Shown here: positions 3,826 through 56,104 of the stretch, in pieces
Layout: each line of letters starts with the position of its first letter
How positions within the stretch are numbered: the stretch's first letter is position 1
NCBI GenBank assembly: GCA_963170055.1
Contig: CAUJGJ010000239.1
Location: forward strand, 30,701 to 94,700
Reading direction: 5' to 3'
Origin: Halisarca cf. caerulea
Taxonomy: Eukaryota; Porifera; Demospongiae; Chondrillida; Halisarcidae
DNA: 64,000 nucleotides
Notes under the pieces: generated by a model
Database searches by the model: none
Told to the model about the DNA's origin: nothing
The model's input: the letters and a program-made list of their open reading frames with translations, nothing else
Program-made: the position numbers and the translations under genes

Positions 3826-3948
3826 ACGCACATTCCTAGTGGACACACATGAAGTTTCTAAAGATCTTAGGGCGTATTTTTATTGTGTTGGATATGCTGG
3901 TGCTAATACCAATATTTGGCACTAGCACCAAGCACATTCCCACTGGAC

Positions 3949-4882
3949 AATTTCCGACGACTGGAGAATGCTTCCCGCAACCAAAGGAACTCTTCCTGTT
4001 GTCAATTTTCAATTTCCCATGCCACCACATAGTTTCTTGCATGAAAGGGAACACTGCCTGAGGTGAAAATTTTAATTTCCCACGCTACCAGATTGCTCCC
4101 CACATCAAATGGAACACTTCCTTGGTGAAAATTTGATTTTCCTGTTACTCCACATGGCTTACCACATCAAAGAAAACACTTCCTTGTTGAAAATTTCAAA
4201 TTGCCACGACTCTAGATGGCTTCCCGCTTCAAAGGGAACACTTCCTTAAATGAAAATTTCAATTTACCACGCCTCCAGATGGCTTCCCGCATCAAAAGGA
4301 ACACTTCCTGTGGTGAAAATTTCTATTTCAAAGTACAGCTCGTTGCCATTTTAGTACAGCTCATTACTATACTGGTACAGCTGATTGCTGTACCAGTACA
4401 GCTCATTGCTATACCGGTAAAATTATATGACTCTAAAAATGAATACTTCCTGTGGTTAAGTTTCCATTTCAAATGCCAAACATGGCTTTCAGCGTAAAAG
4501 GGAAAACTTCCCGTGGAAAAAATAACAATTTCCCACGACTCCACATGGTTGAATGCATCAAAGGGAACACTTCCTGTGTTGAAAATTTTAAATAACTCAA
4601 AACTCCACATGGCTTCTCACATCAAAGGGAACACTTCCTGTTGTGAAAATTGAAATTTTTACCGAAAATATGGCAAATAGCATTAAAGGGAACACTTCTT
4701 GGGTTGAAAATTCAATTTCCCACGCCTCCACATAACTCTCAGGATCAAAAGGAAAACTACCCTAACCATGAAAATTTCCATTTCCCACAACAACACATGG
4801 GGACCCGCATAAGAAAAAAAACTATCTGTAATGAAAATTTAAATTTCAAACTAAACAGTTTCCAGATTTAAGGCTTCCCCCA
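3949..4882. repeat. Degenerate ~63-bp tandem repeat, left part of block 1
   Basis: Units of roughly 63 bp recur with the core ATGGCTTCCCGCATCAAAGG, then GAACACTTCCTG and GAAAATTTCAATTTCCCACG. ATGGCTT-type starts fall near 4151, 4214 and 4278. Units differ by many substitutions and small indels. The block links the satellite to the telomeric repeats and is cut by a TTAA-flanked element at 4883. No gene is seen; the small open frames are not shared between units. Confidence 0.85.
4371..4397. repeat. Perfect 11-bp inverted repeat (hairpin) in a ~20-bp repeat cluster
   Basis: ACTGGTACAGC and GCTGTACCAGT flank the loop TGATT. It lies in a short run of GTACAGCT-containing ~20-bp repeats from about 4333 to 4425. 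A matching hairpin lies at 46355-46381. Confidence 0.85.
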
Positions 4883-4886
4883 TTAA

Positions 4887-5889
4887 CCCTTAAACATTCC
4901 AATTCCCATTTTGAAATTTTGCGCGAACGTTCCAAAGCCACTTGAGTGGCTTTTGCGGTGTGAAAATAGGTTATTTTCGCCAACGGTTTTCTGCTGTTCT
5001 GTTGACTTGTAGGAAACTTCTAGCTTATCCCGAATGTAGTTTGTAGCTAGTGAGATCTTCGTACAAGTCTTGGTGTTCCATTTTCTACACAAAACTTCGT
5101 ATTGGCCTCCAAAACTGTAAGTACTACGTACCTAAATTTGTAAACTTGTATATACATACGTTATCAATCGGCTGGTAAACATTTCGTTACAAAATTCAAC
5201 GCAACTACACATTTAACACTGAAAATACATTGACAGAAACAAAAGCGAAAAGTTGCAGCTAAAAGTCGAGGCATTGGTGAATGCGTCTCTTCTAGTTCCT
5301 AGTCGACTGTCTAATCAACTTGCATACTTTGACGCGTAAATCTCTTCAGTGCTTCAAGACGACATTGAAAGAGCACACTGAAGCTGGCAAAGGAGATTAT
5401 GTCCCAGTACAAATGCAAGAAACGTAAAGGACAAATTTCCTCGGATAGCCCACCATCTGGACGATTCTACGAACGTCAAATCCCCCTGTAAAGCTTCCAA
5501 AACGATATGTCTTGTCTGAAGCTCAAAGAACGAGCGTGTGAGAATATCCTTTACCTGCAAGGAGGTAATCTCCACAATCCGGCGCTTCACTGCCCTTCTC
5601 TATACTTTGCCGTAAAGAACAATCCGTATACTAGACTATAACTTCGCATAACTGCATATTCTAAGTAAAATAAAACGTATATGCATAGGAATCACTTGTA
5701 TAAAAGTAATCTTTACATAGAATGTTTCAGCTATAGTACAGAACGCATTACTACCAAACTATAAGAAAATGTGCCAATCAATAGTAGAAACTAGGCCTAA
5801 AGTTTACATATAAAAAATCAACGAAGAAAATTGGAACTTTTGCAGTTTATGTGCGCGAGCCACTTAAGTGGCTTTGGAATGTTTAACGG
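4887..5889. mobile_element. piggyBac-like non-autonomous element, copy 1
   Basis: A ~1.0-kb block interrupts the 63-bp repeat. The left end is TTAA followed by CCCTTAAACATTCCAA. The right end is the inverse, TTGGAATGTTTAACGG, followed by TTTAA; copy 2 keeps a clean TTAA there. TTAA targets and CCC-starting inverted ends are the known hallmarks of the piggyBac superfamily. A sub-terminal palindrome, GCCACTTGAGTGGC on the left and GCCACTTAAGTGGC on the right, lies inside each end. The interior has short open frames (for example 5354-5590, minus) but nothing I recognise as a DDE transposase, so it is probably non-autonomous and mobilised in trans. Confidence 0.75.
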
Positions 5890-5893
5890 TTTA

Positions 5894-6190
5894 AGGGAAC
5901 ACATCATGAGATAAAAATTGCCATTTCCCATGAAATTACATGGCTTCCTGCACAAAAAGGAACACTTCCTGTTGTAAAAACAATTTATCACGCTTCAAGA
6001 TGGCTTCTCACATCAAAGGAATTACTTCTTGGTATGAAAATTTCAATTTCACACGCCTGCACATGGACTCCTGCATCAACGGGTAAACTTCTCGTGAAAA
6101 TTTTAACTTCCAACATCTCCACATTGTGTCTTACATCAAAGGGAATACTTCCTGTGGTGAATATTTCAATTTTCCACGCCACCACACGTC
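5894..6190. repeat. Degenerate ~63-bp tandem repeat, right part of block 1
   Basis: The same unit type resumes right after the TTAA element with AGGGAACACATCATGAG and continues to the first telomeric repeat. This shows that the element was inserted into a pre-existing array. Confidence 0.85.
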
Positions 6191-6770
6191 CCCTAACGGT
6201 AACCCTAACGGTAACCCTAACGGTAACCCTAACGGTAACCCTAACGGTAACCCTAACGGTAACCCTAACGGTAACCCTAACGGTAACCCTAACGGTAACC
6301 CTAACGGTAACCCTAACGGTAACCCTAACGGTAACCCTAACGGTAACCCTAACGGTAACCCTAACGGTAACCCTAACGGTAACCCTAACGGTAACCCTAA
6401 CGGTAACCCTAACGGTAACCCTAACGGTAACCCTAACGGTAACCCTAACGGTAACCCTAACGGTAACCCTAACGGTAACCCTAACGGTAACCCTAACGGT
6501 AACCCTAACGGTAACCCTAACGGTAACCCTAACGGTAACCCTAACGGTAACCCTAACGGTAACCCTAACGGTAACCCTAACGGTAACCCTAACGGTAACC
6601 CTAACGGTAACCCTAACGGTAACCCTAACGGTAACCCTAACGGTAACCCTAACGGTAACCCTAACGGTAACCCTAACGGTAACCCTAACGGTAACCCTAA
6701 CGGTAACCCTAACGGTAACCCTAACGGTAACCCTAACGGTAACCCTAACGGTAACCCTAACGGTAACCCT
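6191..6770. repeat. Variant telomere array (CCCTAACGGTAA), about 48 copies
   Basis: An uninterrupted 12-bp repeat made of the telomeric hexamer CCCTAA alternating with CGGTAA; on the other strand it reads TTAGGG alternating with TTACCG. All copies appear identical, implying recent expansion or correction. Its orientation is opposite to the TTAGGG arrays to its right. The right-hand homologue (48169-48205) keeps only about three degenerate copies. Long frames such as PNGNPNGN or TVTLTV repeats are translations of the array, not proteins. Confidence 0.97.
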
Positions 6771-6893
6771 AGGGTTAGGGTTAGGGTTAGGGGTTAGGGT
6801 TAGGGTTAGGGTTAGGGTTAGGGTTAGGGTTAGGGTTAGGGTTAGGGTTAGGGTTAGGGTTAGGGTTAGGGTTAGGGTTAGGGTTAGGGTTAC
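6771..6893 (+). repeat. TTAGGG array starting at an inverted junction
   Basis: Immediately after the CCCTAACGGTAA array the strand switches to TTAGGG. The junction is the palindrome AACCCTAGGGTT (6765-6776). Confidence 0.97.
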
Positions 6894-7647
6894 ATAGTGC
6901 TTCCCGACGGCTTTTAGGGTCAATATGGGTATCAAACGGAAGCTCTAAACATATCCAGTACATAGAACCTAAGACAACCTAACCAATTTAGCTATTTCCG
7001 GTAGAAAATGGCAATCGAAGTTGAAAAACGAAAAAAAAAGTCTGATTTTCCGATTTTTGATAATTGCATGTTAATTACTTCCGGATAAGGAATCTTTTCG
7101 TATATATATTATGGTGATAATATTTAATTAGCCGGAGATCCGGAAATCCCTACTCTAACTGGACCACTGCTAATTAAAATAGCAATTATGCAATTCCGAC
7201 ATATGGATATGATAGACCATGCGAAGATAATGCGACATGCATGTTTTGAGCCTAACATGTTAGCTGTGGGCGGAGTTACGGAAGTTTAATTTTAATACGT
7301 AACGGAATATAAAACGGTTATCTGCGGATAATGTAAGATTTCAAGGTGCGACTTTAAAATGCATATTACGACCACGTTTAACATGCACTGAACATGCGAA
7401 ATCTATGTTTTTATTTTCAAAAAAAAATTAGATAATACTTAAGTATTTTAGGGTTAAGGTCAAAGAATGGAAAGGTCATTTAAATCAATTTACTATGCTT
7501 TACTAAGGTCAATGGGCATGTCAAAGGTCAATCATTTGGTATTGGTTTTATTCTTATTATTGAAGATCAAAGGTTATTTTAAAGGTCACTTTTTTGAAGG
7601 TCATTTTTGGACTTTTTGTAAGAATCTAAGATCTTTTTTTCCAATAA
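6894..7647. repeat. Subtelomeric unit A, copy 1
   Basis: A ~755-bp AT-rich spacer begins after GGGTTACATAGTGC and ends at a new TTAGGG array. A near-identical copy follows 850 bp later. The middle (about 7150-7300) is related to the B units through TGGACCACTGCTAATTAA, CGACATATGGATA and GGAGTTACGG. The last ~200 bp hold several AGGTCA half-sites. No credible gene is seen; the open frame at 7467 is a translation of the AGGTCA-rich tract running into TTAGGG. Confidence 0.9.
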
Positions 7648-7683
7648 TTAGGGTTAGGGTTAGGGTTAGGGTTAGGGTTAGGG

Positions 7684-7742
<59 letters not shown>
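7648..7742 (+). repeat. TTAGGG array between A units
   Basis: About 15 hexamers with two TTTAGGG heptamer variants. Confidence 0.95.
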
Positions 7743-8497
7743 CATAGTGCTTCCCGACGGCTTTTAGGGTCAATATGGGTATCAAACGGAAGCTCTAAAC
7801 ATATCCAGTACATAGAACCTAAGACAACCTAACCAATTTAGCTATTTCCGGTAGAAAATGGCAATCGAAGTTGAAAAACGAAAAAAAAAGTCTGATTTTC
7901 CGATTTTTGATAATTGCATGTTAATTACTTCCGGATAAGGAATCTTTTCGTATATATATTATGGTGATAATATTTAATTAGCCGGAGATCCGGAAATCCC
8001 TACTCTAACTGGACCACTGCTAATTAAAATAGCAATTATGCAATTCCGACATATGGATATGATAGACCATGCGAAGATAATGCGACATGCATGTTTTGAG
8101 CCTAACATGTTAGCTGTGGGCGGAGTTACGGAAGTTTAATTTTAATACGTAACGGAATATAAAACGGTTATCTGCGGATAATGTAAGATTTCAAGGTGCG
8201 ACTTTAAAATGCATATTACGACCACGTTTAACATGCACTGAACATGCGAAATCTATGTTTTTATTTTCAAAAAAAAATTAGATAATACTTAAGTATTTTA
8301 GGGTTAAGGTCAAAGAATGGAAAGGTCATTTAAATCAATTTACTATGCTTTACTAAGGTCAATGGGCATGTCAAAGGTCAATCATTTGGTATTGGTTTTA
8401 TTCTTATTATTGAAGATCAAAGGTTATTTTAAAGGTCACTTTTTTGAAGGTCATTTTTGGACTTTTTGTAAGAATCTAAGATCTTTTTTTCCAATAA
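7743..8497. repeat. Subtelomeric unit A, copy 2
   Basis: Repeats the 6894-7647 unit with an 850-bp offset; I saw no differences on reading. It ends in the same AGGTCA-rich tract. Confidence 0.9.
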
Positions 8498-8835
8498 TTA
8501 GGGTTAGGGTTAGGGTTAGGGTTAGGGTTAGGGTTAGGGTTAGGGTTAGGGTTAGGGTTAGGGTTAGGGTTAGGGTTAGGGTTAGGGTTAGGGTTAGGGT
8601 TAGGGTTAGGGTTAGGGTTAGGGTTAGGGTTAGGGTTAGGGTTAGGGTTAGGGTTAGGGTTAGGGTTAGGGTTAGGGTTAGGGTTAGGGTTAGGGTTAGG
8701 GTTAGGGTTAGGGTTAGGGTTAGGGTTAGGGTTAGGGTTAGGGTTAGGGTTAGGGTTAGGGTTAGGGTTAGGGTTAGGGTTAGGGTTAGGGTTAGGGTTA
8801 GGGTTAGGGTTAGGGTTAGGGTTAGGGTTAGGGTT
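8498..8835 (+). repeat. TTAGGG array (about 56 hexamers)
   Basis: Homogeneous TTAGGG hexamers between the A and B units. Confidence 0.97.
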
Positions 8836-9664
8836 TCAGGCTTTCCCCCAAAGGCTTTAGGGTACAATATTGGTATCATTCGATAGCTCTTTAAAAATGA
8901 TTACTTCTGACCTAATGTATGGGGGGTAAACCCTAATTAATTTTCGAGAAAATGGCGTTTGAAAGAAAAAATTGAAGAAAAAAGTTATTATTTCCGAATT
9001 TTTTTAATTGTATGTTAATAAGCATTGAATATCGTTAAGAATGACGTATATATTGTTTGCATATTATACACAGTATAGGAGATACATAAATCCTCACTTT
9101 TACTGGACCACTGCTAATTAATATAGCAATTATGCAATTCCGACATATGGATACGATAGACCATGCGAGGATATTGCGACATACCTGTTTTTGACCTAAC
9201 AAATTACTTGTGGGTGGAGTTACGGCTTCGTTCTTATAGTATGTGAATATACGTATAATACGTTTTTGCGAATATTGCGACATACATAGGTGCGATTGCT
9301 CAATACTGTTTACGAGCAGGTTTGACATGCATCAAACATGCGAAAACAATATTTTAATTTCCAAGAAATTTTTAGGAAAAGTTTAAGTATATTAGGGTTA
9401 AAATCAAAGATTGTAAAGGTCATTTAAATCAATTTACTATGCTTTACTAAGGTCAATAGGCATGTCAAAGGTCAATCTTATTATATTGGGTGTATTTTTA
9501 TTATTGAAGGTCAAAGGTCATTTTAAAGGTCACTTTTTTTAAGGTCATTTTTGGACTTTTTGTAAGAATCTAAGAACATTTTTTCCAAAAATTTGGGTTA
9601 GGGTTACGAAAATTTTTACAAGTATTTCGGTTCAAATTTTTTTTAGCTTATTTTAATAAGGGAA
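8836..9664. repeat. Subtelomeric unit B1, copy 1
   Basis: Starts TTTCAGGCTTTCCCCCAAAG and contains the A-related core (9090-9240). It ends with an AGGTCA-rich tract that includes a direct repeat AGGTCAAAGGTCA at 9508-9520. It repeats at 13174-14002. The minus-strand 97-codon frame at 9035-9328 is judged non-coding because its differences from B2 are mostly replacement changes. Confidence 0.88.
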
Positions 9665-9788
9665 GGTTAGGGTTAGGGTTAGGGTTAGGGTTAGGGTTAG
9701 GGTTAGGGTTAGGGTTAGGGTTAGGGTTAGGGTTAGGGTTAGGGTTAGGGTTAGGGTTAGGGTTAGGGTTAGGGTTAGGGTTAGGGTT
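9665..9788 (+). repeat. TTAGGG array between B1 and B2
   Basis: About 20 hexamers. Confidence 0.95.
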
Positions 9789-10818
9789 TCAGGCTTTCCC
9801 CCAAAGGCTTTAGGGTACAATATTGGTATCATTCGATAGCTCTTGAAAAATGATTACTTCTGACCTAATGTATGGGGGGTAAACCCTAATTAATTTTCGA
9901 GAAAATGGCGTTTGAAAGTAAAAATTCAAAAAAAAAGTTATTATTTCCGAATTTTTTTAATTGTATGTTAATCAGCATTGAATATCGTTAAGAATGACGT
10001 ATATATTGTTTGCATATTATACACAGTATAGGAGATACATAAATCCTCACTTTAACTGGACCACTGCTAATTAATATAGCAATTATGCAAGTCCGACATA
10101 TGGATACGATAGACCATGCGAGGATATTGCGACATACCAGTTTTTGACCTAACAAATCACTTGTGGGCGGAGTTACGGCTTCTTTCTTATAGTATGTGAA
10201 TATACGTATAATACATTTTTGCGTATATTGCGACATAGATAAGTGCGATTGCTCAATACTGTTTACGAGCAGGTTTGTCATGCATTAAACATGCGAAAAC
10301 AATATTTTTATTTCCAAGAAATTTTTAGGAAAAGTTTAAGTATATTAGGGTTAAGGTCAAAGATTGTAAAGGTCATTTAAATCAATTTACTATGCTTTAC
10401 TAAGGTCAATAGGCATGTCAAATGTCAATCATATTATATTGGGTGTATTTTTATTATTGAAGGTCAAAGGTCATTTTAAAGGTTTAAAGGTCACTTTTTT
10501 AAAGGTCATTTTTGGACTTTTTGTAAGAATCTAAGAACATTTTTTCCAAAAATTAGGGTTAGGGTTACGAAAATTTTTACAAGTATTTCAGTTAAAATTT
10601 TTTTTGGCTTGTTTTAATAAGGGAAGGTCAAAGGTCATTTTAGAGGTCATTTGTGAAAGGTCAGGGTTAGGTTGAAAGTTTTTTCATTTTACGCATTTTT
10701 CGATTTTTTTGTAAATTTTCTTTTATCATTTTTGTAAAAGTTTAGGAACGAAAATTAAAAATTTTTAGTGTATTTTACTCACCATTAAATACTATTTCTT
10801 TTGACATGCAATTTGGAC
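9789..10818. repeat. Subtelomeric unit B2 and OTU upstream region, copy 1
   Basis: Starts like B1 (TTTCAGGCTTTCC) and matches it at about 96% through the core. It then continues past a short GGGTTAGGGTTACG motif into an AGGTCA cluster and a T-rich stretch leading to the OTU promoter. This copy carries an extra 8 bp (10483-10490, TTTAAAGG) that copies 2 and 3 lack. That is the only difference I noticed between copies. Confidence 0.85.
10625..10663 (+). promoter_or_regulatory. AGGTCA cluster with a DR1 element, OTU copy 1
   Basis: AGGTCA occurs at 10625-10630 and 10632-10637 (a direct repeat with one-base spacing), at 10644-10649 and at 10658-10663, the last abutting GGGTTAGG. A further AGGTCA DR1 lies at 10461-10473. 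DR1 is the classic site for RXR/HNF4/COUP-type nuclear receptors. The match is seen; use as a promoter element is inference from its place ~170-200 bp upstream of the TATA box. Confidence 0.5.
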
Positions 10819-10825
10819 CTTTAGC

Positions 10826-10833
10826 TATAAATA
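10826..10833 (+). promoter_or_regulatory. TATA box of OTU gene copy 1
   Basis: TATAAATA in the context TTTAGCTATAAATACG. A start site would be expected near 10856. It lies 108 bp upstream of the chosen ATG and is conserved in copies 2 (15156) and 3 (18557). Confidence 0.6.
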
Positions 10834-10889
10834 CGATTCTTATCTTTTGAGAACCACAAGTGTTACATTTTTTTGCTTGTTATATTGAA

Positions 10890-10951
10890 ATGTTGAAAAG
10901 CCTAGTATGAGCTTAGCTATTGGCCTTAAGCAAGCCAAAGATGGATTTTGA
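10890..10951 (+). other. Two upstream ORFs before the OTU start
   Basis: ATG at 10890 opens a 6-codon frame ending in TGA at 10908-10910. ATG at 10907 opens a 14-codon frame whose TGA (10949-10951) overlaps the OTU start codon at 10941. If the TATA box sets the 5' end, both lie in the leader and would dampen translation of the OTU protein. They are present unchanged in copies 2 and 3. Confidence 0.5.
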
Positions 10952-12728
10952 TCTGGACTCAGTGATGTTTTGTCTTTCAGTTCTCAACCTTTTGAAGCTG
11001 TTCAAGAATCTTGCTGTCATCAATTTGTGCAACACGAAACATTTGGAGAAGGAATTGGATGGATTTATTCTATTAGGCGAAATGGGTTGGCGTTTCTTTG
11101 CCATTATTAGTGATGAGATGAAAAAGAACATTTGTGCTATTATTTCTCAACAGGGACCTCTAGTTGTCCCATCAAGGAATTCAGACACTTTCATTTGTGG
11201 AAGAGTTCTTATATCAATACGTCTTTTAACTATGGCCTTATACCAAAGTGGAGTTCGGCAGGTTGTCATTTTAGGGTATGGTTTAAAATGGAATGATGAA
11301 ATAATAATGAAATTTGGAAGTGTTTCACCACCCAGTCATCCTGTTATTAGCAACTTGTGGGATTTTGGTGTAAAAAGAAATTGTGATGATATTCCAATGT
11401 TTTCTATTGACAAAAAGTATGGTAGAACTTACCCAATGTTGAATAGAAGTGAGGAAGGTTCTGTAGAAGTGAAGTATAGAGAGAATATTGGTATAGTTAG
11501 ATGTATTGTTTACCAAGAACTGATACACGCTATAAAAGCCTTAAAGAATGTGCAGATTTGTATTCCAAGGACAAACAAAAGTTATAGAAATAAAATTGTA
11601 GCCTTGATATCAATGTTCAAAGATTTAAAGGATGTAAATGAGGACTACCTATTTGGTTATCGTGTGGAAATTAGAATTAGAGGAATTTCGAGCATTTATG
11701 ATGCATTTGAAATGGCAGAAGACTTCTTTAATTCATGTGATCTACCACCACATGTTAGAATAGTTAGAACTCTAACAATTGATGATTTTTTCAAGACAAT
11801 CCGTGATGCCATTAATGTATTTAGAAGATTTACTATAGGAAGGAATCAGCAAACTCCCAACCAACAAGCTAAACACCTTTTAGCAAGGCTATATAACGCC
11901 TTTGGATTTTCGATTGGAAAATGGCTTTCATACTTAAGGAAACCAGCTTATCCAGATAGGGAAACAAGACGAGGAAGTCATCGAATTACAAGTACGTCTA
12001 GGAACAATTCTGAAGTGGATGCAGCCAAAAAAATGCTAAAGACACGTTCCCACCCCAAAAAACCAGGAACTGTGTGTGCAATGATGAGTAGAGGAGGTTG
12101 TACGAAGACATTCGACACCATTGCTGAGCTAGCCGACTTCGTTGTAGATAAATATCCTAGTAACTGGAGATTTATGTATCTTTTAAAGAAGCAAGGAAAG
12201 GTTCAAAACACAAATAGCAATTACTCACTCCTCCAAGATTTGCCACCGAAGTTTACATATGATGGTATGATGTATGATGGTAATGACAGTTATTTGGTGG
12301 TTGATGTCCCTAACGATCATCACTGTCTTTTTCATGCACTTGAAGGAATATTTTCAAAAGCTTATACTAGCGCAGGTCCTAAGGAGGATGAAATTCGAAG
12401 AGGAATCATTTCTTTTTACGAAACATGCAATCCTCAATTACGGGAATACCTTGAAGGATCATGGCCTGGAGTTATGACTTTCGCTGAACGTGCTACAATT
12501 TTGCGAGAGAAAGAAAATGAATGGGGAGAGCATATGGATATAATTGCAGCTTCCTGCTTCTTCAATGTTGAAATTACAGTAATGACGCAGCAATCTAACG
12601 GGAGATACACTAAAGAAATTATAAAACCACTGAGAAGAGACGGAAGTCCCATGAGAAGTTACTTGACGTCACCAAGGGTACTAATGTTTAATGGGAAAAA
12701 CCACTACTACCTAGCTCATTTGTTATAA
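10941..12728 (+). CDS. OTU-domain cysteine protease, telomere-embedded, copy 1
   Basis: Intronless 595-codon frame. I start at the first in-frame ATG (MDFDLDSV); an in-frame TAG lies upstream at 10914-10916. The C-terminal ~143 residues look like an OTU cysteine protease: catalytic-loop motif PNDHHCLFHAL (Asp459, Cys462), a WG motif at 528-529 followed by DIIAAS, and NHYYL with the expected catalytic His588. OTU enzymes remove or trim ubiquitin-type modifiers, and OTU domains also occur in eukaryotic mobile elements such as Helentrons. Residues 1-450 match no family I know, and I see no Rep, helicase, reverse transcriptase or transposase motif. Residues 330-390 are basic and Ser/Thr-rich. The gene sits between subtelomeric unit B2 and a TTAGGG array and is transcribed toward the chromosome end. 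OTU assignment is strong; substrate and biological role are unknown. Confidence 0.88.
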   Translation: MDFDLDSVMFCLSVLNLLKLFKNLAVINLCNTKHLEKELDGFILLGEMGWRFFAIISDEMKKNICAIISQQGPLVVPSRNSDTFICGRVLISIRLLTMALYQSGVRQVVILGYGLKWNDEIIMKFGSVSPPSHPVISNLWDFGVKRNCDDIPMFSIDKKYGRTYPMLNRSEEGSVEVKYRENIGIVRCIVYQELIHAIKALKNVQICIPRTNKSYRNKIVALISMFKDLKDVNEDYLFGYRVEIRIRGISSIYDAFEMAEDFFNSCDLPPHVRIVRTLTIDDFFKTIRDAINVFRRFTIGRNQQTPNQQAKHLLARLYNAFGFSIGKWLSYLRKPAYPDRETRRGSHRITSTSRNNSEVDAAKKMLKTRSHPKKPGTVCAMMSRGGCTKTFDTIAELADFVVDKYPSNWRFMYLLKKQGKVQNTNSNYSLLQDLPPKFTYDGMMYDGNDSYLVVDVPNDHHCLFHALEGIFSKAYTSAGPKEDEIRRGIISFYETCNPQLREYLEGSWPGVMTFAERATILREKENEWGEHMDIIAASCFFNVEITVMTQQSNGRYTKEIIKPLRRDGSPMRSYLTSPRVLMFNGKNHYYLAHLL

Positions 12729-12878
12729 TGTAACCTTGACTTAACTTGACTTAAATATAATGTAACCTTTTTGAGTTGTAATCTTAATGTGTATTCTTAC
12801 AAAAAGTTTGTAATTTGAATATTAATTATTACAAGTTGATAATAATATCACATTTACATATCATAAATATTGTTTAAA
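12729..12878 (+). other. OTU 3' flank running into telomere repeats
   Basis: 150 bp of AT-rich sequence between the stop codon and the first TTAGGG. I see no AATAAA or ATTAAA; weak variants AATATA and CATAAA are present. The same flank follows copies 2 (17059-17208) and 3 (20460-20609). Confidence 0.75.
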
Positions 12879-12933
12879 TTAGGTTAGGGTTAGGGTTAAG
12901 GGTTAGGGGTTAGGGTTAGGGTTAGGGTTAGGG

Positions 12934-12987
<54 letters not shown>

Positions 12988-13013
12988 GGTTAGGGTTAGG
13001 GTTAGGGTTAGGG

Positions 13014-13054
<41 letters not shown>

Positions 13055-13173
13055 GGTTAGGGTTAGGGTTAGGGTTAGGGTTAGGGTTAGGGTTAGGGTT
13101 AGGGTTAGGGTTAGGGTTAGGGTTAGGGTTAGGGTTAGGGTTAGGGTTAGGGGTTAGGGTTAGGGTTAGGGTT
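12879..13173 (+). repeat. TTAGGG array after OTU copy 1
   Basis: About 48 hexamers with interspersed TTTAGGG, TTAAGGG and TTAGGGG variants. The pattern of variants at its start is repeated after copies 2 and 3. Confidence 0.96.
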
Positions 13174-14002
13174 TCAGGCTTTCCCCCAAAGGCTTTAGGG
13201 TACAATATTGGTATCATTCGATAGCTCTTTAAAAATGATTACTTCTGACCTAATGTATGGGGGGTAAACCCTAATTAATTTTCGAGAAAATGGCGTTTGA
13301 AAGAAAAAATTGAAGAAAAAAGTTATTATTTCCGAATTTTTTTAATTGTATGTTAATAAGCATTGAATATCGTTAAGAATGACGTATATATTGTTTGCAT
13401 ATTATACACAGTATAGGAGATACATAAATCCTCACTTTTACTGGACCACTGCTAATTAATATAGCAATTATGCAATTCCGACATATGGATACGATAGACC
13501 ATGCGAGGATATTGCGACATACCTGTTTTTGACCTAACAAATTACTTGTGGGTGGAGTTACGGCTTCGTTCTTATAGTATGTGAATATACGTATAATACG
13601 TTTTTGCGAATATTGCGACATACATAGGTGCGATTGCTCAATACTGTTTACGAGCAGGTTTGACATGCATCAAACATGCGAAAACAATATTTTAATTTCC
13701 AAGAAATTTTTAGGAAAAGTTTAAGTATATTAGGGTTAAAATCAAAGATTGTAAAGGTCATTTAAATCAATTTACTATGCTTTACTAAGGTCAATAGGCA
13801 TGTCAAAGGTCAATCTTATTATATTGGGTGTATTTTTATTATTGAAGGTCAAAGGTCATTTTAAAGGTCACTTTTTTTAAGGTCATTTTTGGACTTTTTG
13901 TAAGAATCTAAGAACATTTTTTCCAAAAATTTGGGTTAGGGTTACGAAAATTTTTACAAGTATTTCGGTTCAAATTTTTTTTAGCTTATTTTAATAAGGG
14001 AA
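13174..14002. repeat. Subtelomeric unit B1, copy 2
   Basis: Repeats 8836-9664 with a 4338-bp offset. No differences were seen on reading. Confidence 0.88.
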
Positions 14003-14126
14003 GGTTAGGGTTAGGGTTAGGGTTAGGGTTAGGGTTAGGGTTAGGGTTAGGGTTAGGGTTAGGGTTAGGGTTAGGGTTAGGGTTAGGGTTAGGGTTAGGG
14101 TTAGGGTTAGGGTTAGGGTTAGGGTT
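14003..14126 (+). repeat. TTAGGG array between B1 and B2, copy 2
   Basis: Same size as the array at 9665-9788. Confidence 0.95.
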
Positions 14127-15148
14127 TCAGGCTTTCCCCCAAAGGCTTTAGGGTACAATATTGGTATCATTCGATAGCTCTTGAAAAATGATTACTTCTG
14201 ACCTAATGTATGGGGGGTAAACCCTAATTAATTTTCGAGAAAATGGCGTTTGAAAGTAAAAATTCAAAAAAAAAGTTATTATTTCCGAATTTTTTTAATT
14301 GTATGTTAATCAGCATTGAATATCGTTAAGAATGACGTATATATTGTTTGCATATTATACACAGTATAGGAGATACATAAATCCTCACTTTAACTGGACC
14401 ACTGCTAATTAATATAGCAATTATGCAAGTCCGACATATGGATACGATAGACCATGCGAGGATATTGCGACATACCAGTTTTTGACCTAACAAATCACTT
14501 GTGGGCGGAGTTACGGCTTCTTTCTTATAGTATGTGAATATACGTATAATACATTTTTGCGTATATTGCGACATAGATAAGTGCGATTGCTCAATACTGT
14601 TTACGAGCAGGTTTGTCATGCATTAAACATGCGAAAACAATATTTTTATTTCCAAGAAATTTTTAGGAAAAGTTTAAGTATATTAGGGTTAAGGTCAAAG
14701 ATTGTAAAGGTCATTTAAATCAATTTACTATGCTTTACTAAGGTCAATAGGCATGTCAAATGTCAATCATATTATATTGGGTGTATTTTTATTATTGAAG
14801 GTCAAAGGTCATTTTAAAGGTCACTTTTTTAAAGGTCATTTTTGGACTTTTTGTAAGAATCTAAGAACATTTTTTCCAAAAATTAGGGTTAGGGTTACGA
14901 AAATTTTTACAAGTATTTCAGTTAAAATTTTTTTTGGCTTGTTTTAATAAGGGAAGGTCAAAGGTCATTTTAGAGGTCATTTGTGAAAGGTCAGGGTTAG
15001 GTTGAAAGTTTTTTCATTTTACGCATTTTTCGATTTTTTTGTAAATTTTCTTTTATCATTTTTGTAAAAGTTTAGGAACGAAAATTAAAAATTTTTAGTG
15101 TATTTTACTCACCATTAAATACTATTTCTTTTGACATGCAATTTGGAC
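14127..15148. repeat. Subtelomeric unit B2 and OTU upstream region, copy 2
   Basis: Same as 9789-10818 but without the 8-bp insertion, so the offset to copy 1 changes from 4338 to 4330 bp. The AGGTCA cluster lies at 14955-14993. Confidence 0.86.
14955..14993 (+). promoter_or_regulatory. AGGTCA cluster with a DR1 element, OTU copy 2
   Basis: Same four half-sites and spacing as copy 1, followed by the TATA box at 15156-15163. Confidence 0.5.
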
Positions 15149-15270
15149 CTTTAGCTATAAATACGATTCTTATCTTTTGAGAACCACAAGTGTTACATTT
15201 TTTTGCTTGTTATATTGAAATGTTGAAAAGCCTAGTATGAGCTTAGCTATTGGCCTTAAGCAAGCCAAAG

Positions 15271-17058
15271 ATGGATTTTGATCTGGACTCAGTGATGTTT
15301 TGTCTTTCAGTTCTCAACCTTTTGAAGCTGTTCAAGAATCTTGCTGTCATCAATTTGTGCAACACGAAACATTTGGAGAAGGAATTGGATGGATTTATTC
15401 TATTAGGCGAAATGGGTTGGCGTTTCTTTGCCATTATTAGTGATGAGATGAAAAAGAACATTTGTGCTATTATTTCTCAACAGGGACCTCTAGTTGTCCC
15501 ATCAAGGAATTCAGACACTTTCATTTGTGGAAGAGTTCTTATATCAATACGTCTTTTAACTATGGCCTTATACCAAAGTGGAGTTCGGCAGGTTGTCATT
15601 TTAGGGTATGGTTTAAAATGGAATGATGAAATAATAATGAAATTTGGAAGTGTTTCACCACCCAGTCATCCTGTTATTAGCAACTTGTGGGATTTTGGTG
15701 TAAAAAGAAATTGTGATGATATTCCAATGTTTTCTATTGACAAAAAGTATGGTAGAACTTACCCAATGTTGAATAGAAGTGAGGAAGGTTCTGTAGAAGT
15801 GAAGTATAGAGAGAATATTGGTATAGTTAGATGTATTGTTTACCAAGAACTGATACACGCTATAAAAGCCTTAAAGAATGTGCAGATTTGTATTCCAAGG
15901 ACAAACAAAAGTTATAGAAATAAAATTGTAGCCTTGATATCAATGTTCAAAGATTTAAAGGATGTAAATGAGGACTACCTATTTGGTTATCGTGTGGAAA
16001 TTAGAATTAGAGGAATTTCGAGCATTTATGATGCATTTGAAATGGCAGAAGACTTCTTTAATTCATGTGATCTACCACCACATGTTAGAATAGTTAGAAC
16101 TCTAACAATTGATGATTTTTTCAAGACAATCCGTGATGCCATTAATGTATTTAGAAGATTTACTATAGGAAGGAATCAGCAAACTCCCAACCAACAAGCT
16201 AAACACCTTTTAGCAAGGCTATATAACGCCTTTGGATTTTCGATTGGAAAATGGCTTTCATACTTAAGGAAACCAGCTTATCCAGATAGGGAAACAAGAC
16301 GAGGAAGTCATCGAATTACAAGTACGTCTAGGAACAATTCTGAAGTGGATGCAGCCAAAAAAATGCTAAAGACACGTTCCCACCCCAAAAAACCAGGAAC
16401 TGTGTGTGCAATGATGAGTAGAGGAGGTTGTACGAAGACATTCGACACCATTGCTGAGCTAGCCGACTTCGTTGTAGATAAATATCCTAGTAACTGGAGA
16501 TTTATGTATCTTTTAAAGAAGCAAGGAAAGGTTCAAAACACAAATAGCAATTACTCACTCCTCCAAGATTTGCCACCGAAGTTTACATATGATGGTATGA
16601 TGTATGATGGTAATGACAGTTATTTGGTGGTTGATGTCCCTAACGATCATCACTGTCTTTTTCATGCACTTGAAGGAATATTTTCAAAAGCTTATACTAG
16701 CGCAGGTCCTAAGGAGGATGAAATTCGAAGAGGAATCATTTCTTTTTACGAAACATGCAATCCTCAATTACGGGAATACCTTGAAGGATCATGGCCTGGA
16801 GTTATGACTTTCGCTGAACGTGCTACAATTTTGCGAGAGAAAGAAAATGAATGGGGAGAGCATATGGATATAATTGCAGCTTCCTGCTTCTTCAATGTTG
16901 AAATTACAGTAATGACGCAGCAATCTAACGGGAGATACACTAAAGAAATTATAAAACCACTGAGAAGAGACGGAAGTCCCATGAGAAGTTACTTGACGTC
17001 ACCAAGGGTACTAATGTTTAATGGGAAAAACCACTACTACCTAGCTCATTTGTTATAA
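15271..17058 (+). CDS. OTU-domain cysteine protease, telomere-embedded, copy 2
   Basis: The encoded 595 residues are identical to copy 1, including Asp459, Cys462, the WG motif and His588. The start is again the first ATG, preceded by the same two upstream ORFs and TATA box (15156-15163). Identity at protein level, and apparently in the flanks too, points to very recent duplication or gene conversion rather than ancient copies under selection alone. The unit is B1-B2-OTU-TTAGGG, like copy 1. Confidence 0.88.
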   Translation: MDFDLDSVMFCLSVLNLLKLFKNLAVINLCNTKHLEKELDGFILLGEMGWRFFAIISDEMKKNICAIISQQGPLVVPSRNSDTFICGRVLISIRLLTMALYQSGVRQVVILGYGLKWNDEIIMKFGSVSPPSHPVISNLWDFGVKRNCDDIPMFSIDKKYGRTYPMLNRSEEGSVEVKYRENIGIVRCIVYQELIHAIKALKNVQICIPRTNKSYRNKIVALISMFKDLKDVNEDYLFGYRVEIRIRGISSIYDAFEMAEDFFNSCDLPPHVRIVRTLTIDDFFKTIRDAINVFRRFTIGRNQQTPNQQAKHLLARLYNAFGFSIGKWLSYLRKPAYPDRETRRGSHRITSTSRNNSEVDAAKKMLKTRSHPKKPGTVCAMMSRGGCTKTFDTIAELADFVVDKYPSNWRFMYLLKKQGKVQNTNSNYSLLQDLPPKFTYDGMMYDGNDSYLVVDVPNDHHCLFHALEGIFSKAYTSAGPKEDEIRRGIISFYETCNPQLREYLEGSWPGVMTFAERATILREKENEWGEHMDIIAASCFFNVEITVMTQQSNGRYTKEIIKPLRRDGSPMRSYLTSPRVLMFNGKNHYYLAHLL

Positions 17059-17208
17059 TGTAACCTTGACTTAACTTGACTTAAATATAATGTAACCTTT
17101 TTGAGTTGTAATCTTAATGTGTATTCTTACAAAAAGTTTGTAATTTGAATATTAATTATTACAAGTTGATAATAATATCACATTTACATATCATAAATAT
17201 TGTTTAAA

Positions 17209-17263
17209 TTAGGTTAGGGTTAGGGTTAAGGGTTAGGGGTTAGGGTTAGGGTTAGGGTTAGGG

Positions 17264-17317
<54 letters not shown>

Positions 17318-17343
17318 GGTTAGGGTTAGGGTTAGGGTTAGGG

Positions 17344-17384
<41 letters not shown>

Positions 17385-17527
17385 GGTTAGGGTTAGGGTT
17401 AGGGTTAGGGTTAGGGTTAGGGTTAGGGTTAGGGTTAGGGTTAGGGTTAGGGTTAGGGTTAGGGTTAGGGTTAGGGTTAGGGGTTAGGGTTAGGGTTAGG
17501 GTTAGGGTTAGGGTTAGGGTTAGGGTT
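17209..17527 (+). repeat. TTAGGG array after OTU copy 2
   Basis: Begins with the same pattern of variant repeats as the array at 12879 and is about 24 bp (four hexamers) longer. Confidence 0.96.
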
Positions 17528-18549
17528 TCAGGCTTTCCCCCAAAGGCTTTAGGGTACAATATTGGTATCATTCGATAGCTCTTGAAAAATGATTACTTCT
17601 GACCTAATGTATGGGGGGTAAACCCTAATTAATTTTCGAGAAAATGGCGTTTGAAAGTAAAAATTCAAAAAAAAAGTTATTATTTCCGAATTTTTTTAAT
17701 TGTATGTTAATCAGCATTGAATATCGTTAAGAATGACGTATATATTGTTTGCATATTATACACAGTATAGGAGATACATAAATCCTCACTTTAACTGGAC
17801 CACTGCTAATTAATATAGCAATTATGCAAGTCCGACATATGGATACGATAGACCATGCGAGGATATTGCGACATACCAGTTTTTGACCTAACAAATCACT
17901 TGTGGGCGGAGTTACGGCTTCTTTCTTATAGTATGTGAATATACGTATAATACATTTTTGCGTATATTGCGACATAGATAAGTGCGATTGCTCAATACTG
18001 TTTACGAGCAGGTTTGTCATGCATTAAACATGCGAAAACAATATTTTTATTTCCAAGAAATTTTTAGGAAAAGTTTAAGTATATTAGGGTTAAGGTCAAA
18101 GATTGTAAAGGTCATTTAAATCAATTTACTATGCTTTACTAAGGTCAATAGGCATGTCAAATGTCAATCATATTATATTGGGTGTATTTTTATTATTGAA
18201 GGTCAAAGGTCATTTTAAAGGTCACTTTTTTAAAGGTCATTTTTGGACTTTTTGTAAGAATCTAAGAACATTTTTTCCAAAAATTAGGGTTAGGGTTACG
18301 AAAATTTTTACAAGTATTTCAGTTAAAATTTTTTTTGGCTTGTTTTAATAAGGGAAGGTCAAAGGTCATTTTAGAGGTCATTTGTGAAAGGTCAGGGTTA
18401 GGTTGAAAGTTTTTTCATTTTACGCATTTTTCGATTTTTTTGTAAATTTTCTTTTATCATTTTTGTAAAAGTTTAGGAACGAAAATTAAAAATTTTTAGT
18501 GTATTTTACTCACCATTAAATACTATTTCTTTTGACATGCAATTTGGAC
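17528..18549. repeat. Subtelomeric unit B2 and OTU upstream region, copy 3
   Basis: Same as copy 2, but this unit has no B1 in front, so the repeat length here is 3401 bp instead of 4330. The TTAGGG array joins directly to B2. This is what unequal crossing-over between TTAGGG arrays would produce. Confidence 0.86.
18356..18394 (+). promoter_or_regulatory. AGGTCA cluster with a DR1 element, OTU copy 3
   Basis: Same four half-sites and spacing as copies 1 and 2, followed by the TATA box at 18557-18564. Confidence 0.5.
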
Positions 18550-18671
18550 CTTTAGCTATAAATACGATTCTTATCTTTTGAGAACCACAAGTGTTACATT
18601 TTTTTGCTTGTTATATTGAAATGTTGAAAAGCCTAGTATGAGCTTAGCTATTGGCCTTAAGCAAGCCAAAG

Positions 18672-20459
18672 ATGGATTTTGATCTGGACTCAGTGATGTT
18701 TTGTCTTTCAGTTCTCAACCTTTTGAAGCTGTTCAAGAATCTTGCTGTCATCAATTTGTGCAACACGAAACATTTGGAGAAGGAATTGGATGGATTTATT
18801 CTATTAGGCGAAATGGGTTGGCGTTTCTTTGCCATTATTAGTGATGAGATGAAAAAGAACATTTGTGCTATTATTTCTCAACAGGGACCTCTAGTTGTCC
18901 CATCAAGGAATTCAGACACTTTCATTTGTGGAAGAGTTCTTATATCAATACGTCTTTTAACTATGGCCTTATACCAAAGTGGAGTTCGGCAGGTTGTCAT
19001 TTTAGGGTATGGTTTAAAATGGAATGATGAAATAATAATGAAATTTGGAAGTGTTTCACCACCCAGTCATCCTGTTATTAGCAACTTGTGGGATTTTGGT
19101 GTAAAAAGAAATTGTGATGATATTCCAATGTTTTCTATTGACAAAAAGTATGGTAGAACTTACCCAATGTTGAATAGAAGTGAGGAAGGTTCTGTAGAAG
19201 TGAAGTATAGAGAGAATATTGGTATAGTTAGATGTATTGTTTACCAAGAACTGATACACGCTATAAAAGCCTTAAAGAATGTGCAGATTTGTATTCCAAG
19301 GACAAACAAAAGTTATAGAAATAAAATTGTAGCCTTGATATCAATGTTCAAAGATTTAAAGGATGTAAATGAGGACTACCTATTTGGTTATCGTGTGGAA
19401 ATTAGAATTAGAGGAATTTCGAGCATTTATGATGCATTTGAAATGGCAGAAGACTTCTTTAATTCATGTGATCTACCACCACATGTTAGAATAGTTAGAA
19501 CTCTAACAATTGATGATTTTTTCAAGACAATCCGTGATGCCATTAATGTATTTAGAAGATTTACTATAGGAAGGAATCAGCAAACTCCCAACCAACAAGC
19601 TAAACACCTTTTAGCAAGGCTATATAACGCCTTTGGATTTTCGATTGGAAAATGGCTTTCATACTTAAGGAAACCAGCTTATCCAGATAGGGAAACAAGA
19701 CGAGGAAGTCATCGAATTACAAGTACGTCTAGGAACAATTCTGAAGTGGATGCAGCCAAAAAAATGCTAAAGACACGTTCCCACCCCAAAAAACCAGGAA
19801 CTGTGTGTGCAATGATGAGTAGAGGAGGTTGTACGAAGACATTCGACACCATTGCTGAGCTAGCCGACTTCGTTGTAGATAAATATCCTAGTAACTGGAG
19901 ATTTATGTATCTTTTAAAGAAGCAAGGAAAGGTTCAAAACACAAATAGCAATTACTCACTCCTCCAAGATTTGCCACCGAAGTTTACATATGATGGTATG
20001 ATGTATGATGGTAATGACAGTTATTTGGTGGTTGATGTCCCTAACGATCATCACTGTCTTTTTCATGCACTTGAAGGAATATTTTCAAAAGCTTATACTA
20101 GCGCAGGTCCTAAGGAGGATGAAATTCGAAGAGGAATCATTTCTTTTTACGAAACATGCAATCCTCAATTACGGGAATACCTTGAAGGATCATGGCCTGG
20201 AGTTATGACTTTCGCTGAACGTGCTACAATTTTGCGAGAGAAAGAAAATGAATGGGGAGAGCATATGGATATAATTGCAGCTTCCTGCTTCTTCAATGTT
20301 GAAATTACAGTAATGACGCAGCAATCTAACGGGAGATACACTAAAGAAATTATAAAACCACTGAGAAGAGACGGAAGTCCCATGAGAAGTTACTTGACGT
20401 CACCAAGGGTACTAATGTTTAATGGGAAAAACCACTACTACCTAGCTCATTTGTTATAA
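18672..20459 (+). CDS. OTU-domain cysteine protease, telomere-embedded, copy 3 (most distal)
   Basis: A third copy encoding the identical 595 residues, with the same start, upstream ORFs and TATA box (18557-18564). It is the copy nearest the terminal TTAGGG array, which starts 150 bp after the stop codon, so any transcript not cleaved early would run into telomeric DNA with UUAGGG sense. No internal frameshift or stop is present, so all three copies could be expressed. Confidence 0.88.
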   Translation: MDFDLDSVMFCLSVLNLLKLFKNLAVINLCNTKHLEKELDGFILLGEMGWRFFAIISDEMKKNICAIISQQGPLVVPSRNSDTFICGRVLISIRLLTMALYQSGVRQVVILGYGLKWNDEIIMKFGSVSPPSHPVISNLWDFGVKRNCDDIPMFSIDKKYGRTYPMLNRSEEGSVEVKYRENIGIVRCIVYQELIHAIKALKNVQICIPRTNKSYRNKIVALISMFKDLKDVNEDYLFGYRVEIRIRGISSIYDAFEMAEDFFNSCDLPPHVRIVRTLTIDDFFKTIRDAINVFRRFTIGRNQQTPNQQAKHLLARLYNAFGFSIGKWLSYLRKPAYPDRETRRGSHRITSTSRNNSEVDAAKKMLKTRSHPKKPGTVCAMMSRGGCTKTFDTIAELADFVVDKYPSNWRFMYLLKKQGKVQNTNSNYSLLQDLPPKFTYDGMMYDGNDSYLVVDVPNDHHCLFHALEGIFSKAYTSAGPKEDEIRRGIISFYETCNPQLREYLEGSWPGVMTFAERATILREKENEWGEHMDIIAASCFFNVEITVMTQQSNGRYTKEIIKPLRRDGSPMRSYLTSPRVLMFNGKNHYYLAHLL

Positions 20460-20609
20460 TGTAACCTTGACTTAACTTGACTTAAATATAATGTAACCTT
20501 TTTGAGTTGTAATCTTAATGTGTATTCTTACAAAAAGTTTGTAATTTGAATATTAATTATTACAAGTTGATAATAATATCACATTTACATATCATAAATA
20601 TTGTTTAAA

Positions 20610-20664
20610 TTAGGTTAGGGTTAGGGTTAAGGGTTAGGGGTTAGGGTTAGGGTTAGGGTTAGGG

Positions 20665-20718
<54 letters not shown>

Positions 20719-20744
20719 GGTTAGGGTTAGGGTTAGGGTTAGGG

Positions 20745-20785
<41 letters not shown>

Positions 20786-21300
20786 GGTTAGGGTTAGGGT
20801 TAGGGTTAGGGTTAGGGTTAGGGTTAGGGTTAGGGTTAGGGTTAGGGTTAGGGTTAGGGTTAGGGTTAGGGTTAGGGTTAGGGGTTAGGGTTAGGGTTAG
20901 GGTTAGGGTTAGGGTTAGGGTTAGGGTTAGGGTTAGGGTTAGGGTTAGGGGTTAGGGTTAGGGTTAGGGTTAGGGTTAGGGTTAGGGTTAGGGTTAGGGT
21001 TAGGGTTAGGGTTAGGGTTAGGGTTAGGGTTAGGGTTAGGGTTAGGGTTAGGGTTAGGGTTAGGGTTAGGGTTAGGGTTAGGGTTAGGGTTAGGGTTAGG
21101 GTTAGGGTTAGGGTTAGGGGTTAGGGTTAGGGTTAGGGTTAGGGTTAGGGTTAGGGTTAGGGGTTAGGGTTAGGGTTAGGGTTAGGGTTAGGGTTAGGGT
21201 TAGGGTTAGGGTTAGGGTTAGGGTTAGGGTTAGGGTTAGGGTTAGGGTTAGGGTTAGGGTTAGGGTTAGGGTTAGGGTTAGGGTTAGGGTTAGGGTTAGG
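20610..21300 (+). repeat. Long TTAGGG array up to the assembly gap
   Basis: About 115 hexamers with scattered TTTAGGG and TTAGGGG variants, mostly in the proximal half, and increasingly pure TTAGGG toward the gap. The G-rich strand runs 5'-3' to the right, as at the right-hand end of a chromosome. Increasing purity distally is typical of a true terminal array. Confidence 0.95.
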
Positions 21301-45931: not shown

Positions 45932-46855
45932 CAATTTCCGACGACTGGAGAATGCTTCCCGCAACCAAAGGAACTCTTCCTGTTGTCAATTTTAAATTTC
46001 CCATGCCACCACATAGTTTCTTGCATGAAAGGGAAAACTGCCAGAGGTGGAAATTTTAATTTCCCACGCCACCAGATTGCTCCCCACATGAAATGGAACA
46101 CTTCCTTGGTTAAAATTTGATTTTCCCATTACTCCACATGGCTTACTACTTCAAAGAAAACACTTCCTTGTTGAAAATTTTATATTGCCACGACTCTAGA
46201 TGGCTTCCCGCTTCAATGGGAACACTTCCTTAAATGAAAATTTCAATTTACCACGCCTCCAGATGGCTTCCCGCATCAAAAGGAACACTTCCTGTGGTGA
46301 AAATTTCTATTTCAAAGTACAGCTCGTTGCCATTTAAGTACAGCTCATTACTATACTGGTACAGCTGATTGCTGTACCAGTACAGCTCATTGCTATACCG
46401 GTACAATTATATGACTCTAAAAATGAATACATCCTGTGGTAAAGTTTCCATTTCAAACGCCAAACATGGCTTTCAGCGTAAAAGGGAAAACTTCCCGTGG
46501 AAAAAATAACAATTTCCCACGACTCCACATGGTTGAATGCATCAAAGGGTGTTGAAAATTTTAAATAACTCAAAACTCCACATGGCTTCTCACATCAAAG
46601 GGAACACTTCCTGTTGTGAAAATTTAAATTTTTACCGAAAATATGGCAAATAGCATTAAAGGGAACACTTCTTGGGTTGAAAATTCAATTTCCCACGCCT
46701 CCACACAACTCTCAGGATCAAAAGGAAAACTACCCTAACCATGAAAATTTACATTTCCCACAACAACACATTGGGACCCGCATAAAAAAAACAACTATCT
46801 GTAATGAAAATTTAAATTTCAAACTAAACAGTTTCCAGATTTCAGGCTTCCCCCA
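45932..46855. repeat. Degenerate ~63-bp tandem repeat, left part of block 2
   Basis: A second copy of 3949-4882 with the same unit order and scattered substitutions plus small indels (for example about 17 bp missing near 46549). It forms part of the duplicated boundary. Confidence 0.88.
46355..46381. repeat. Perfect 11-bp inverted repeat, copy 2
   Basis: ACTGGTACAGC, loop TGATT, GCTGTACCAGT, as at 4371-4397. Stem and loop are unchanged between copies. Confidence 0.85.
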
Positions 46856-46859
46856 TTAA

Positions 46860-47865: not shown

Positions 47866-47869
47866 TTAA

Positions 47870-56034: not shown

Positions 56035-56104
56035 CTGTAAATACGGAGAGAATAAACATTAACACGGTAAATGCGCACACGTATGTTTAATCTAAACCGT
56101 TAGG

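Follow-up and report, generated by a model that had tools for sequence, protein, structure and literature searches.

A gene-bearing unit sits inside the telomere repeats at the end of this sponge contig, and we read it, with a probability of roughly 0.7, as a telomere-resident amplicon that would have been spread by recombination via the TTAGGG tracts, eroded, and healed. In the window (the whole stretch of 64,000 nucleotides, C223:30701-94700 of an assembly of 194.5 Mb and 454 contigs), three OTU-type genes of 595 aa follow one another head to tail with TTAGGG tracts between them, all on the + strand and oriented outward, the terminus lying to the right. Their open reading frames (10920-12728, 15250-17058 and 18651-20459) give a single identical protein, of 602 aa from a TTG and 595 aa from the first ATG, which bears out the identity claimed in an earlier note made from the letters; of the three spacer-plus-gene units described there between TTAGGG arrays, the genes are in place, but the spacers number five (starts 8834, 9787, 13172, 14125 and 17526), and two of them stop short of the gene. 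Because the last TTAGGG tract abuts a 200-N gap, the array is the end of the contig, read here as the end of a chromosome, and we take the sequence beyond the gap to be another contig, placed there by scaffolding. An Rfam search of 4300-21300 gave no match. The features, with tracts as called by TRF, are:

3948-6190, + strand: common subtelomere core, X-like in position, proximal to the telomere (TRF; copy search)
6191-6771, + strand: perfect (CCCTAACGGTAA)n repeat, 48 copies, bordering the TTAGGG zone (TRF)
6775-6889, + strand: TTAGGG tract with which the telomere zone begins on its inner side
6890-8497, + strand: two older, diverged C-type spacers (6890-7647 and 7740-8497), further inward than the array and sharing about 77% identity with the A/B spacer, with a TTAGGG tract at 7648-7739 between them
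8498-8835, + strand: TTAGGG tract
8834-9664, + strand: A/B spacer, truncated at unit base 840 and fused straight to TTAGGG with a 3-nt overlap; then TTAGGG 9665-9788
9787-10940, + strand: unit 1 spacer and gene 5′ region, with TATAAATA at 10826 and 11 AGGTCA half-sites
10941-12728, + strand: OTU-type gene of unit 1, 595 aa from ATG, with Asp455, Cys462 and His588
12729-12881, + strand: unit 1 3′ tail, 153 bp, CATAAA close to its end; then TTAGGG 12882-13173
13172-14002, + strand: cut-short A/B spacer; then TTAGGG 14003-14126
14125-15270, + strand: unit 2 spacer and 5′ region
15271-17058, + strand: OTU-type gene of unit 2; tail 17059-17211; TTAGGG 17212-17527
17526-18671, + strand: unit 3 spacer and 5′ region
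18672-20459, + strand: OTU-type gene of unit 3; tail 20460-20612
20613-21300, + strand: last TTAGGG tract, 688 bp, contig end
21301-21500, no strand: 200-N gap

The boundary repeat is found likewise at C15 and C249, and C10 looks alike by spacing; for the subtelomere core segment 4420-6190, the genome holds 40 or more long copies (40 of the 141 candidates scored).

At the scale of the genome, the spacer occurs in at least 81 places on at least 27 contigs, 26 of the 27 listed contigs having it at a contig end or an N stretch, and the layout that had been likened to yeast Y′ elements, with a terminal site, TTAGGG between units and many ends reached, holds in this mapping across contig ends. The inner start is shared, 69 of the 81 listed spacers beginning at unit base 1, and 7 extend to base 1131, where they adjoin the gene. 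The complete intact gene copies found number four, every one between TTAGGG tracts, and a protein search of the genome, with all 22 candidates scored, gave no intact copy outside that context; where the earlier note had named a unit scattered through chromosome interiors as the outcome against its reading, the interior copies are diverged pieces only, with stops in 9 of 14 alignments. Short TTAGGG runs are present within contigs too. On C62, C15 and C249 the gene is cut off by the contig end or by N, and copy numbers are uncertain because the assembly breaks at chromosome ends; some contig ends may be duplicated pieces.

The three gene copies on C223 and the one on C11, together with those on C62, C15 and C249 over the part present, do not differ at any site compared, and the intact gene occurs with two spacer versions, the C223 type and that of C11. 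In the C11 unit, bases 1-1061 have 24 substitutions and the following 2032 are free of them, a mosaic of the pattern expected from recombination. Diverged relics of the gene sit in contig interiors, with relics on C412 and C40, and dN/dS against the relics is 0.12-0.50 in 13 of 14 alignments, which indicates that the protein was under selection in the past; taken together, relics and ratios show an old and formerly selected family, and a gene selected at the protein level should have a product that does something.

The outer boundary is variable, with direct joins of the unit to TTAGGG at 19 unit positions. Among 21 distinct junctions, obtained by merging by hand, 12 overlap the in-phase telomere repeat by at least 2 nt against 4.2 expected, and 9 by at least 3 nt against 1.4 expected, while at the 1-nt level the 14 junctions against 9.6 expected are barely over chance. 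The overlap resembles that of telomere healing, and the junction set would be a record of natural telomere loss and re-capping within one genome. Most of the cut-short spacers end at bases 786-885, between two internal telomere-like motifs, and these may predate the arrival of the gene rather than derive from gene-bearing units; a descent of every short spacer from a unit with the gene was considered and dropped, being clear only for the ends within the gene 5′ region, at base 918 (C367) and base 1090 (C398).

The unit, in the amplicon reading, would comprise a subtelomeric spacer of 0.8-0.9 kb and about 2.2 kb with a promoter-like region, the intronless OTU-type gene and a short tail, the whole flanked on either side by TTAGGG. 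Recombination would have carried copies of it from one chromosome end to another, most likely by break-induced replication starting in a TTAGGG tract, a route whose expected footprints are what is observed. Copying from such a tract would yield the fixed inner boundary and the head-to-tail stacks with TTAGGG between units, and the repeated loss of the outer side by erosion or breakage, followed by capping with new TTAGGG, would leave cut-short units at many ends and the whole gene at few. The assembly also holds a partial match to a telomerase RNA-binding domain (36.2 bits), which speaks against any need for telomerase-free maintenance by the unit.

Target-primed reverse transcription would likewise leave the inner end fixed and the outer end variable, and the unit might be a non-autonomous telomeric retrotransposon, its RNA being reverse-transcribed onto the chromosome end by the enzyme of a partner, as proposed for MoTeR2 and MoTeR1; the TTAGGG-separated head-to-tail arrays, the cut-short copies and the one unrelated inner region fit MoTeR2 as described (PMC7367193). 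For the mRNA of the gene itself, however, the polarity is wrong, the gene having its 5′ side inward and losing its 3′ side, and the units carry no second long frame: apart from the three OTU frames, the only frame of at least 150 aa in 8836-20612 crosses a TTAGGG tract (8317-8886), with no reverse-transcriptase ORF; Pfam lists no reverse transcriptase in the OTU protein, and the C11 mosaic suggests exchange at the DNA level, which makes such an origin improbable.

It is doubtful, too, that this is a plain host gene family of subtelomeres, with the TTAGGG and spacers reflecting ordinary subtelomeric turnover and the gene a passenger: the relics on C412 and C40 show an old, selected family, the gene is reached by only 7 of the 81 listed spacers, and the 40 or more long copies of the subtelomere core suggest that it rides a general subtelomere system, but the four complete intact copies all lie between TTAGGG tracts, with none elsewhere among the 22 scored candidates, and the gene is enclosed within the repeat unit and has spread together with it. 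Gaps, contigs of round size and N stretches with a telomere tract pointing at them from either side render the scaffolding of ends unreliable; even so, a collapsed or mis-joined repeat set beside TTAGGG is very improbable, given that spacer-to-TTAGGG joins recur on many contigs with differing breakpoints and that two different spacer versions accompany the intact gene.

As regards the product, its C-terminal part is probably an OTU domain, an assignment drawn from a Pfam match below the cut-off, a low-confidence model resembling OTU folds, and the motif. The match to PF02338 (OTU) has E 0.0035 and 18.3 bits, below the cut-off of 23.3, and 2 of the 11 rows of alignment A2 match Pfam OTU, the best with E 0.0021; the predicted model of the OTU part, of low confidence (pLDDT 48.6), gives OTU-type proteases in the first 7 Foldseek rows, none with E < 0.001, and in all 50 of the VIA matches listed. 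The earlier claim of an OTU protease is thereby tempered, although its catalytic-type residues are intact: Asp455, Cys462 and His588, assigned by motif position, we take to be the catalytic centre of an OTU cysteine protease. The protein would most likely be a deubiquitinase serving the element or the host, and could act at chromosome ends. Residues 1-450, to which the note could assign no family and in which it foresaw that a transposon protein might be recognized, remain without one, as for this protein Pfam lists nothing except OTU under E 0.05, and PHROGs and NCBIfam gave no match for the region up to E 1; such negative family searches are compatible with a known fold. A PDB sequence search gave chance-level rows only, as did one with the OTU part, and an AlphaFold model of the full protein from 11 fragmentary alignment rows (pLDDT 35) was discarded. 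A search of 5.8 billion proteins returned the telomere OTU protein itself and short pieces, of which P0003, P0004 and P0006 match relics on L038 and L039 and P0005 is a piece of 74 aa; scans of prokaryote and viral contigs, in which close relatives only are detectable, confirmed no relative.

Helentrons and Helitrons are described as mobile DNA with an OTU-type protease (PMC4067079). The sponge genome has an OTU-bearing Helitron protein (L089) with Helitron_like_N and PIF1 domains, unlike the telomere protein, for which Pfam lists only OTU and whose OTU part was left unaligned by BLASTP; an origin of the gene from the OTU-bearing Helitrons is unsupported by this comparison with one Helitron protein, though BLASTP may fail to align OTU domains that are only distantly related.

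One could go further and suppose a selfish or domesticated animal telomere element, whose own deubiquitinase would steer the repair of eroded ends to recombination between ends over fusion, and whose spacer would recruit nuclear receptors through the arrayed AGGTCA half-sites, as a standing natural ALT-like system beside telomerase, although we hold this to be unlikely. Orphan receptors have been reported to act at human telomeres maintained by recombination (ALT); nuclear-receptor DNA-binding domains are animal-specific, and the genome has 6 matches, all on C241, a low number that would suit an animal outside Bilateria.

The Y′ element of S. cerevisiae is a subtelomeric tandem unit with telomere repeat between units and one long ORF, spread by recombination to many ends, and it encodes a helicase-like protein. 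The present unit shares the subtelomeric and tandem arrangement, the TTAGGG between units, the one long ORF and the many ends, but the ORF is of OTU type, Pfam lists no helicase, and the outer ends are variable and re-capped. A literature search for OTU with telomere or subtelomere, covering few subscription papers, found no such element described among the papers listed, one for subtelomeres in sponge genomes found nothing, and the telomere-embedded gene-bearing units that were found in print are fungal, with a helicase or a reverse transcriptase. A standing case in an animal, with a selected gene that probably belongs to the ubiquitin pathway, would allow a test of whether elements acting on end repair can live at chromosome ends. 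The MoTeR1 and MoTeR2 units of Magnaporthe oryzae are described as lying head to tail with (TTAGGG)n between them, as truncated at the terminus and fused there to telomere repeat through short in-frame seeds, and as amplified in tandem through a D-loop (PMC7367193), and the OTU units resemble them in their order, their TTAGGG separation and their truncations joined to the telomere repeat; however, MoTeR1 has a reverse transcriptase, none being seen in the OTU unit, and its truncations take away the outward 5′ end, whereas here the 3′ side of the gene is lost. The FoTeR and TLH (telomere-linked helicase) regions of Fusarium oxysporum are also chromosome-end units, full and truncated, the TLH regions bearing genes without reverse transcriptase (PMC12857005), as do the OTU units; but FoTeR 5′ ends face the terminus and that of the OTU gene faces inward, the polarity being opposite to that of telomeric retrotransposons. 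In C. elegans, TALT is a unique block that has telomere repeats at its sides and is copied in tandem to many ends, as observed in telomerase-deleted survivors, wild strains carry TALT1-like copies, and TALT1 consists of a promoter and first exon (PMC4595603, PMC9066243); the OTU unit is similarly flanked by telomere repeats of the same orientation and copied to many ends, but carries a whole selected gene, and the assembly it comes from has a match to a telomerase domain. The best reading, then, is that the unit works like Y′, the MoTeR arrays and the TALT of worms, but with neither helicase nor reverse transcriptase in it.

The array of OTU units in the window, part of contig C223 in an assembly of 194.5 Mb and 454 contigs, is read here as a telomeric amplicon that is copied by recombination, eroded and re-capped, a reading to which we assign a probability of about 0.7. 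Its layout is as follows.

1-21300: from left to right, a 104-bp satellite, the 2.2-kb subtelomere core, a 12-bp array and the TTAGGG zone
10826: TATAAATA, 5′ of the first ATG
10941: first ATG of the OTU gene in unit 1
20613-21300: final TTAGGG tract, leading directly into a gap of 200 N

The 12-bp array, (CCCTAACGGTAA)n, is perfect and lies between the core and the TTAGGG zone. Besides three full units, in each of which the OTU gene is intact and directed towards the terminus, this zone contains spacers alone, two of them older and two cut short. The claim of the earlier note that three full units with intact genes are set within TTAGGG beside a probable chromosome end was confirmed in the window; the DNA past 21500 is read as another contig, scaffold-joined to the array, and the array as a contig end, with a chromosome end as the preferred reading. 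Beyond it, a second core (46405-48233, 97% identical) is accompanied by a short version of the 12-bp array and by TTAGGG repeated four times, after which come other sequence and, in place of a telomere, a 66-bp satellite; two adjacent frames with N-terminal sequence in common lie at 53522-57163 (-), the first of them (53522-56080, -) encoding C2H2 zinc fingers.

The 1131-bp spacer, searched against the genome with 40 of 53 candidates scored, so that counts are lower bounds, was found at no fewer than 81 places on at least 27 contigs, with C61 as a further candidate from a 25-mer search. Among the matches listed, 26 of the 27 contigs have their outermost place either beside a stretch of N or no more than about 6 kb from a contig end, and the stacks extend inward up to ~12 kb (C229). 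The N stretches measure exactly 200 N in the window, C15, C241, C446 and C440, and are longer in C249, C132, C99, C434 and C187; whether longer or, as in C182, of unspecified length, such stretches may represent either gaps or sequence that was withheld. Telomere tracts or units stand face to face across N stretches in C15, C249, C99, C446 and probably C132, which seem to be scaffolds joining two contig ends head to head. Two diverged places depart from the terminal pattern (C40, 79% identity; the second in C446, 87%), each adjoined by a short telomere-like stretch and then other sequence.

The inner boundary is fixed: among the matches listed, 69 of 81 begin at unit base 1, the others being ten diverged copies, one that starts at base 4 and one fragment. 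Base 1131, adjoining the gene, is reached by seven of the 81 listed (three in C223, one each in C11, C62, C15 and C249), and at least 40 long copies of the core were found (40 of 141 candidates scored), so that the core occurs on more ends than the gene. The outer boundary varies, the unit passing directly into TTAGGG at 19 positions from 130 to 1090. Junctions were read in 44 rows from the 81 places, leaving aside those at an internal motif (base 779) and at the full tail, and were merged by hand into 21 distinct ones; against random breakpoints and phases (binomial tail), in-phase overlap with the telomere repeat of at least 1 nt is found in 14 (9.6 expected; 0.04), of at least 2 nt in 12 (4.2; 2e-4) and of at least 3 nt in 9 (1.4; 4e-6). 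These overlaps are the footprint of telomere growth on broken ends; for M. oryzae, in-frame seeds of 1–7 nt are reported in 17 of 23 truncated MoTeRs (PMC7367193). Since two cut-short units end within the 5′ region of the gene (C367 at 918, C398 at 1090), gene-bearing ends also break and are re-capped. Healing by telomerase is plausible, given that its RNA-binding domain is partially matched in the genome (36.2 bits, positions 99–131 of 133).

The seven gene-bearing units, those of C62, C15 and C249 compared only up to where their contigs end, are identical, except that the first of the three in the window differs by an 8-bp indel and that C11 has substitutions. These number 24, all in bases 1–1061, with no difference over the next 2032 bases, synonymous sites included, a mosaic that recombination swapping the outer part would explain simply. 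The fixed inner and variable outer boundaries, flanking TTAGGG, head-to-tail stacks and near-perfect homogeneity together point to units that would have been copied by recombination through TTAGGG tracts, and would then have lost their outer part and been re-capped. Spread by retrotransposition is less likely, because the gene points the opposite way to MoTeR and FoTeR (PMC7367193, PMC12857005), and because the unit lacks a reverse transcriptase frame, none being present among its frames of 150 aa or more.

As for the gene, the OTU protein was searched against the genome, all 22 candidates being scored, and 20 matches were obtained: four full-length at 100% and four partial at 99–100% (C62 twice, C15, C249). 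The remaining 12 are diverged pieces, of which 11 lie on C412 (6.85–7.47 Mb of 8.70 Mb) and one on C40. Stops occur in nine of 14 relic alignments, and dN/dS is 0.12–0.50 in 13, dS being saturated in the remaining one; the best relic gives 0.17 over 382 codons, the values being rough, with several of the other alignments near dS saturation. As neutral decay of relics raises the ratio, such low values indicate long purifying selection on the family. Spacer, core and gene relics occur together in one stretch of C412 (L043), which suggests that the gene has long resided with these repeats, or that this stretch is a buried old subtelomere; the C412 cluster, well within its contig, is possibly a buried old chromosome end. 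Separately, when all 88 candidates for the Pfam OTU domain were scored, 67 of the 79 matches in the genome fell on C369 (14.16 Mb, ~7% of the genome). The one examined there, L089:3423-8501 (-), belongs to a Helitron protein that combines the Helitron_like_N, PIF1 and OTU domains. One guess is that the protein of the unit works at uncapped ends, on ubiquitin signals; equally, it may work elsewhere in the cell, the telomere being only its home.

The spacer and 5′ region of unit 1 (9787-10940) hold 11 AGGTCA half-sites (+) against 0.24 in shuffles, with seven in one A-type spacer, six in one C-type (older, ~77% identical) spacer and none on the + strand of gene and core. The perfect DR1 AGGTCAAAGGTCA occurs eight times in the window (0 expected), and its surrounding 25-mer 62 times in the genome. 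We take this array to resemble a nuclear-receptor site, and orphan receptors are reported at ALT telomeres; its abundance may also come from tandem duplication of a short motif. All six nuclear-receptor DNA-binding domain matches in the genome (seven of seven candidates scored) lie within ~144 kb at C241:1.63-1.78 Mb. Such domains are not known outside animals, and the assignment of the unit to an animal host is based on them.

In its mode of working, the unit is like the yeast Y′, the MoTeR arrays and the TALT of C. elegans, and to this extent the description "Y′-like" stands; it fails in the helicase, which sets the unit apart from Y′, while reverse transcriptase and polarity separate it from MoTeR. 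We would file it as a kind of telomere-embedded, gene-bearing amplicon, new with respect to the known ones in its gene content and its animal host.
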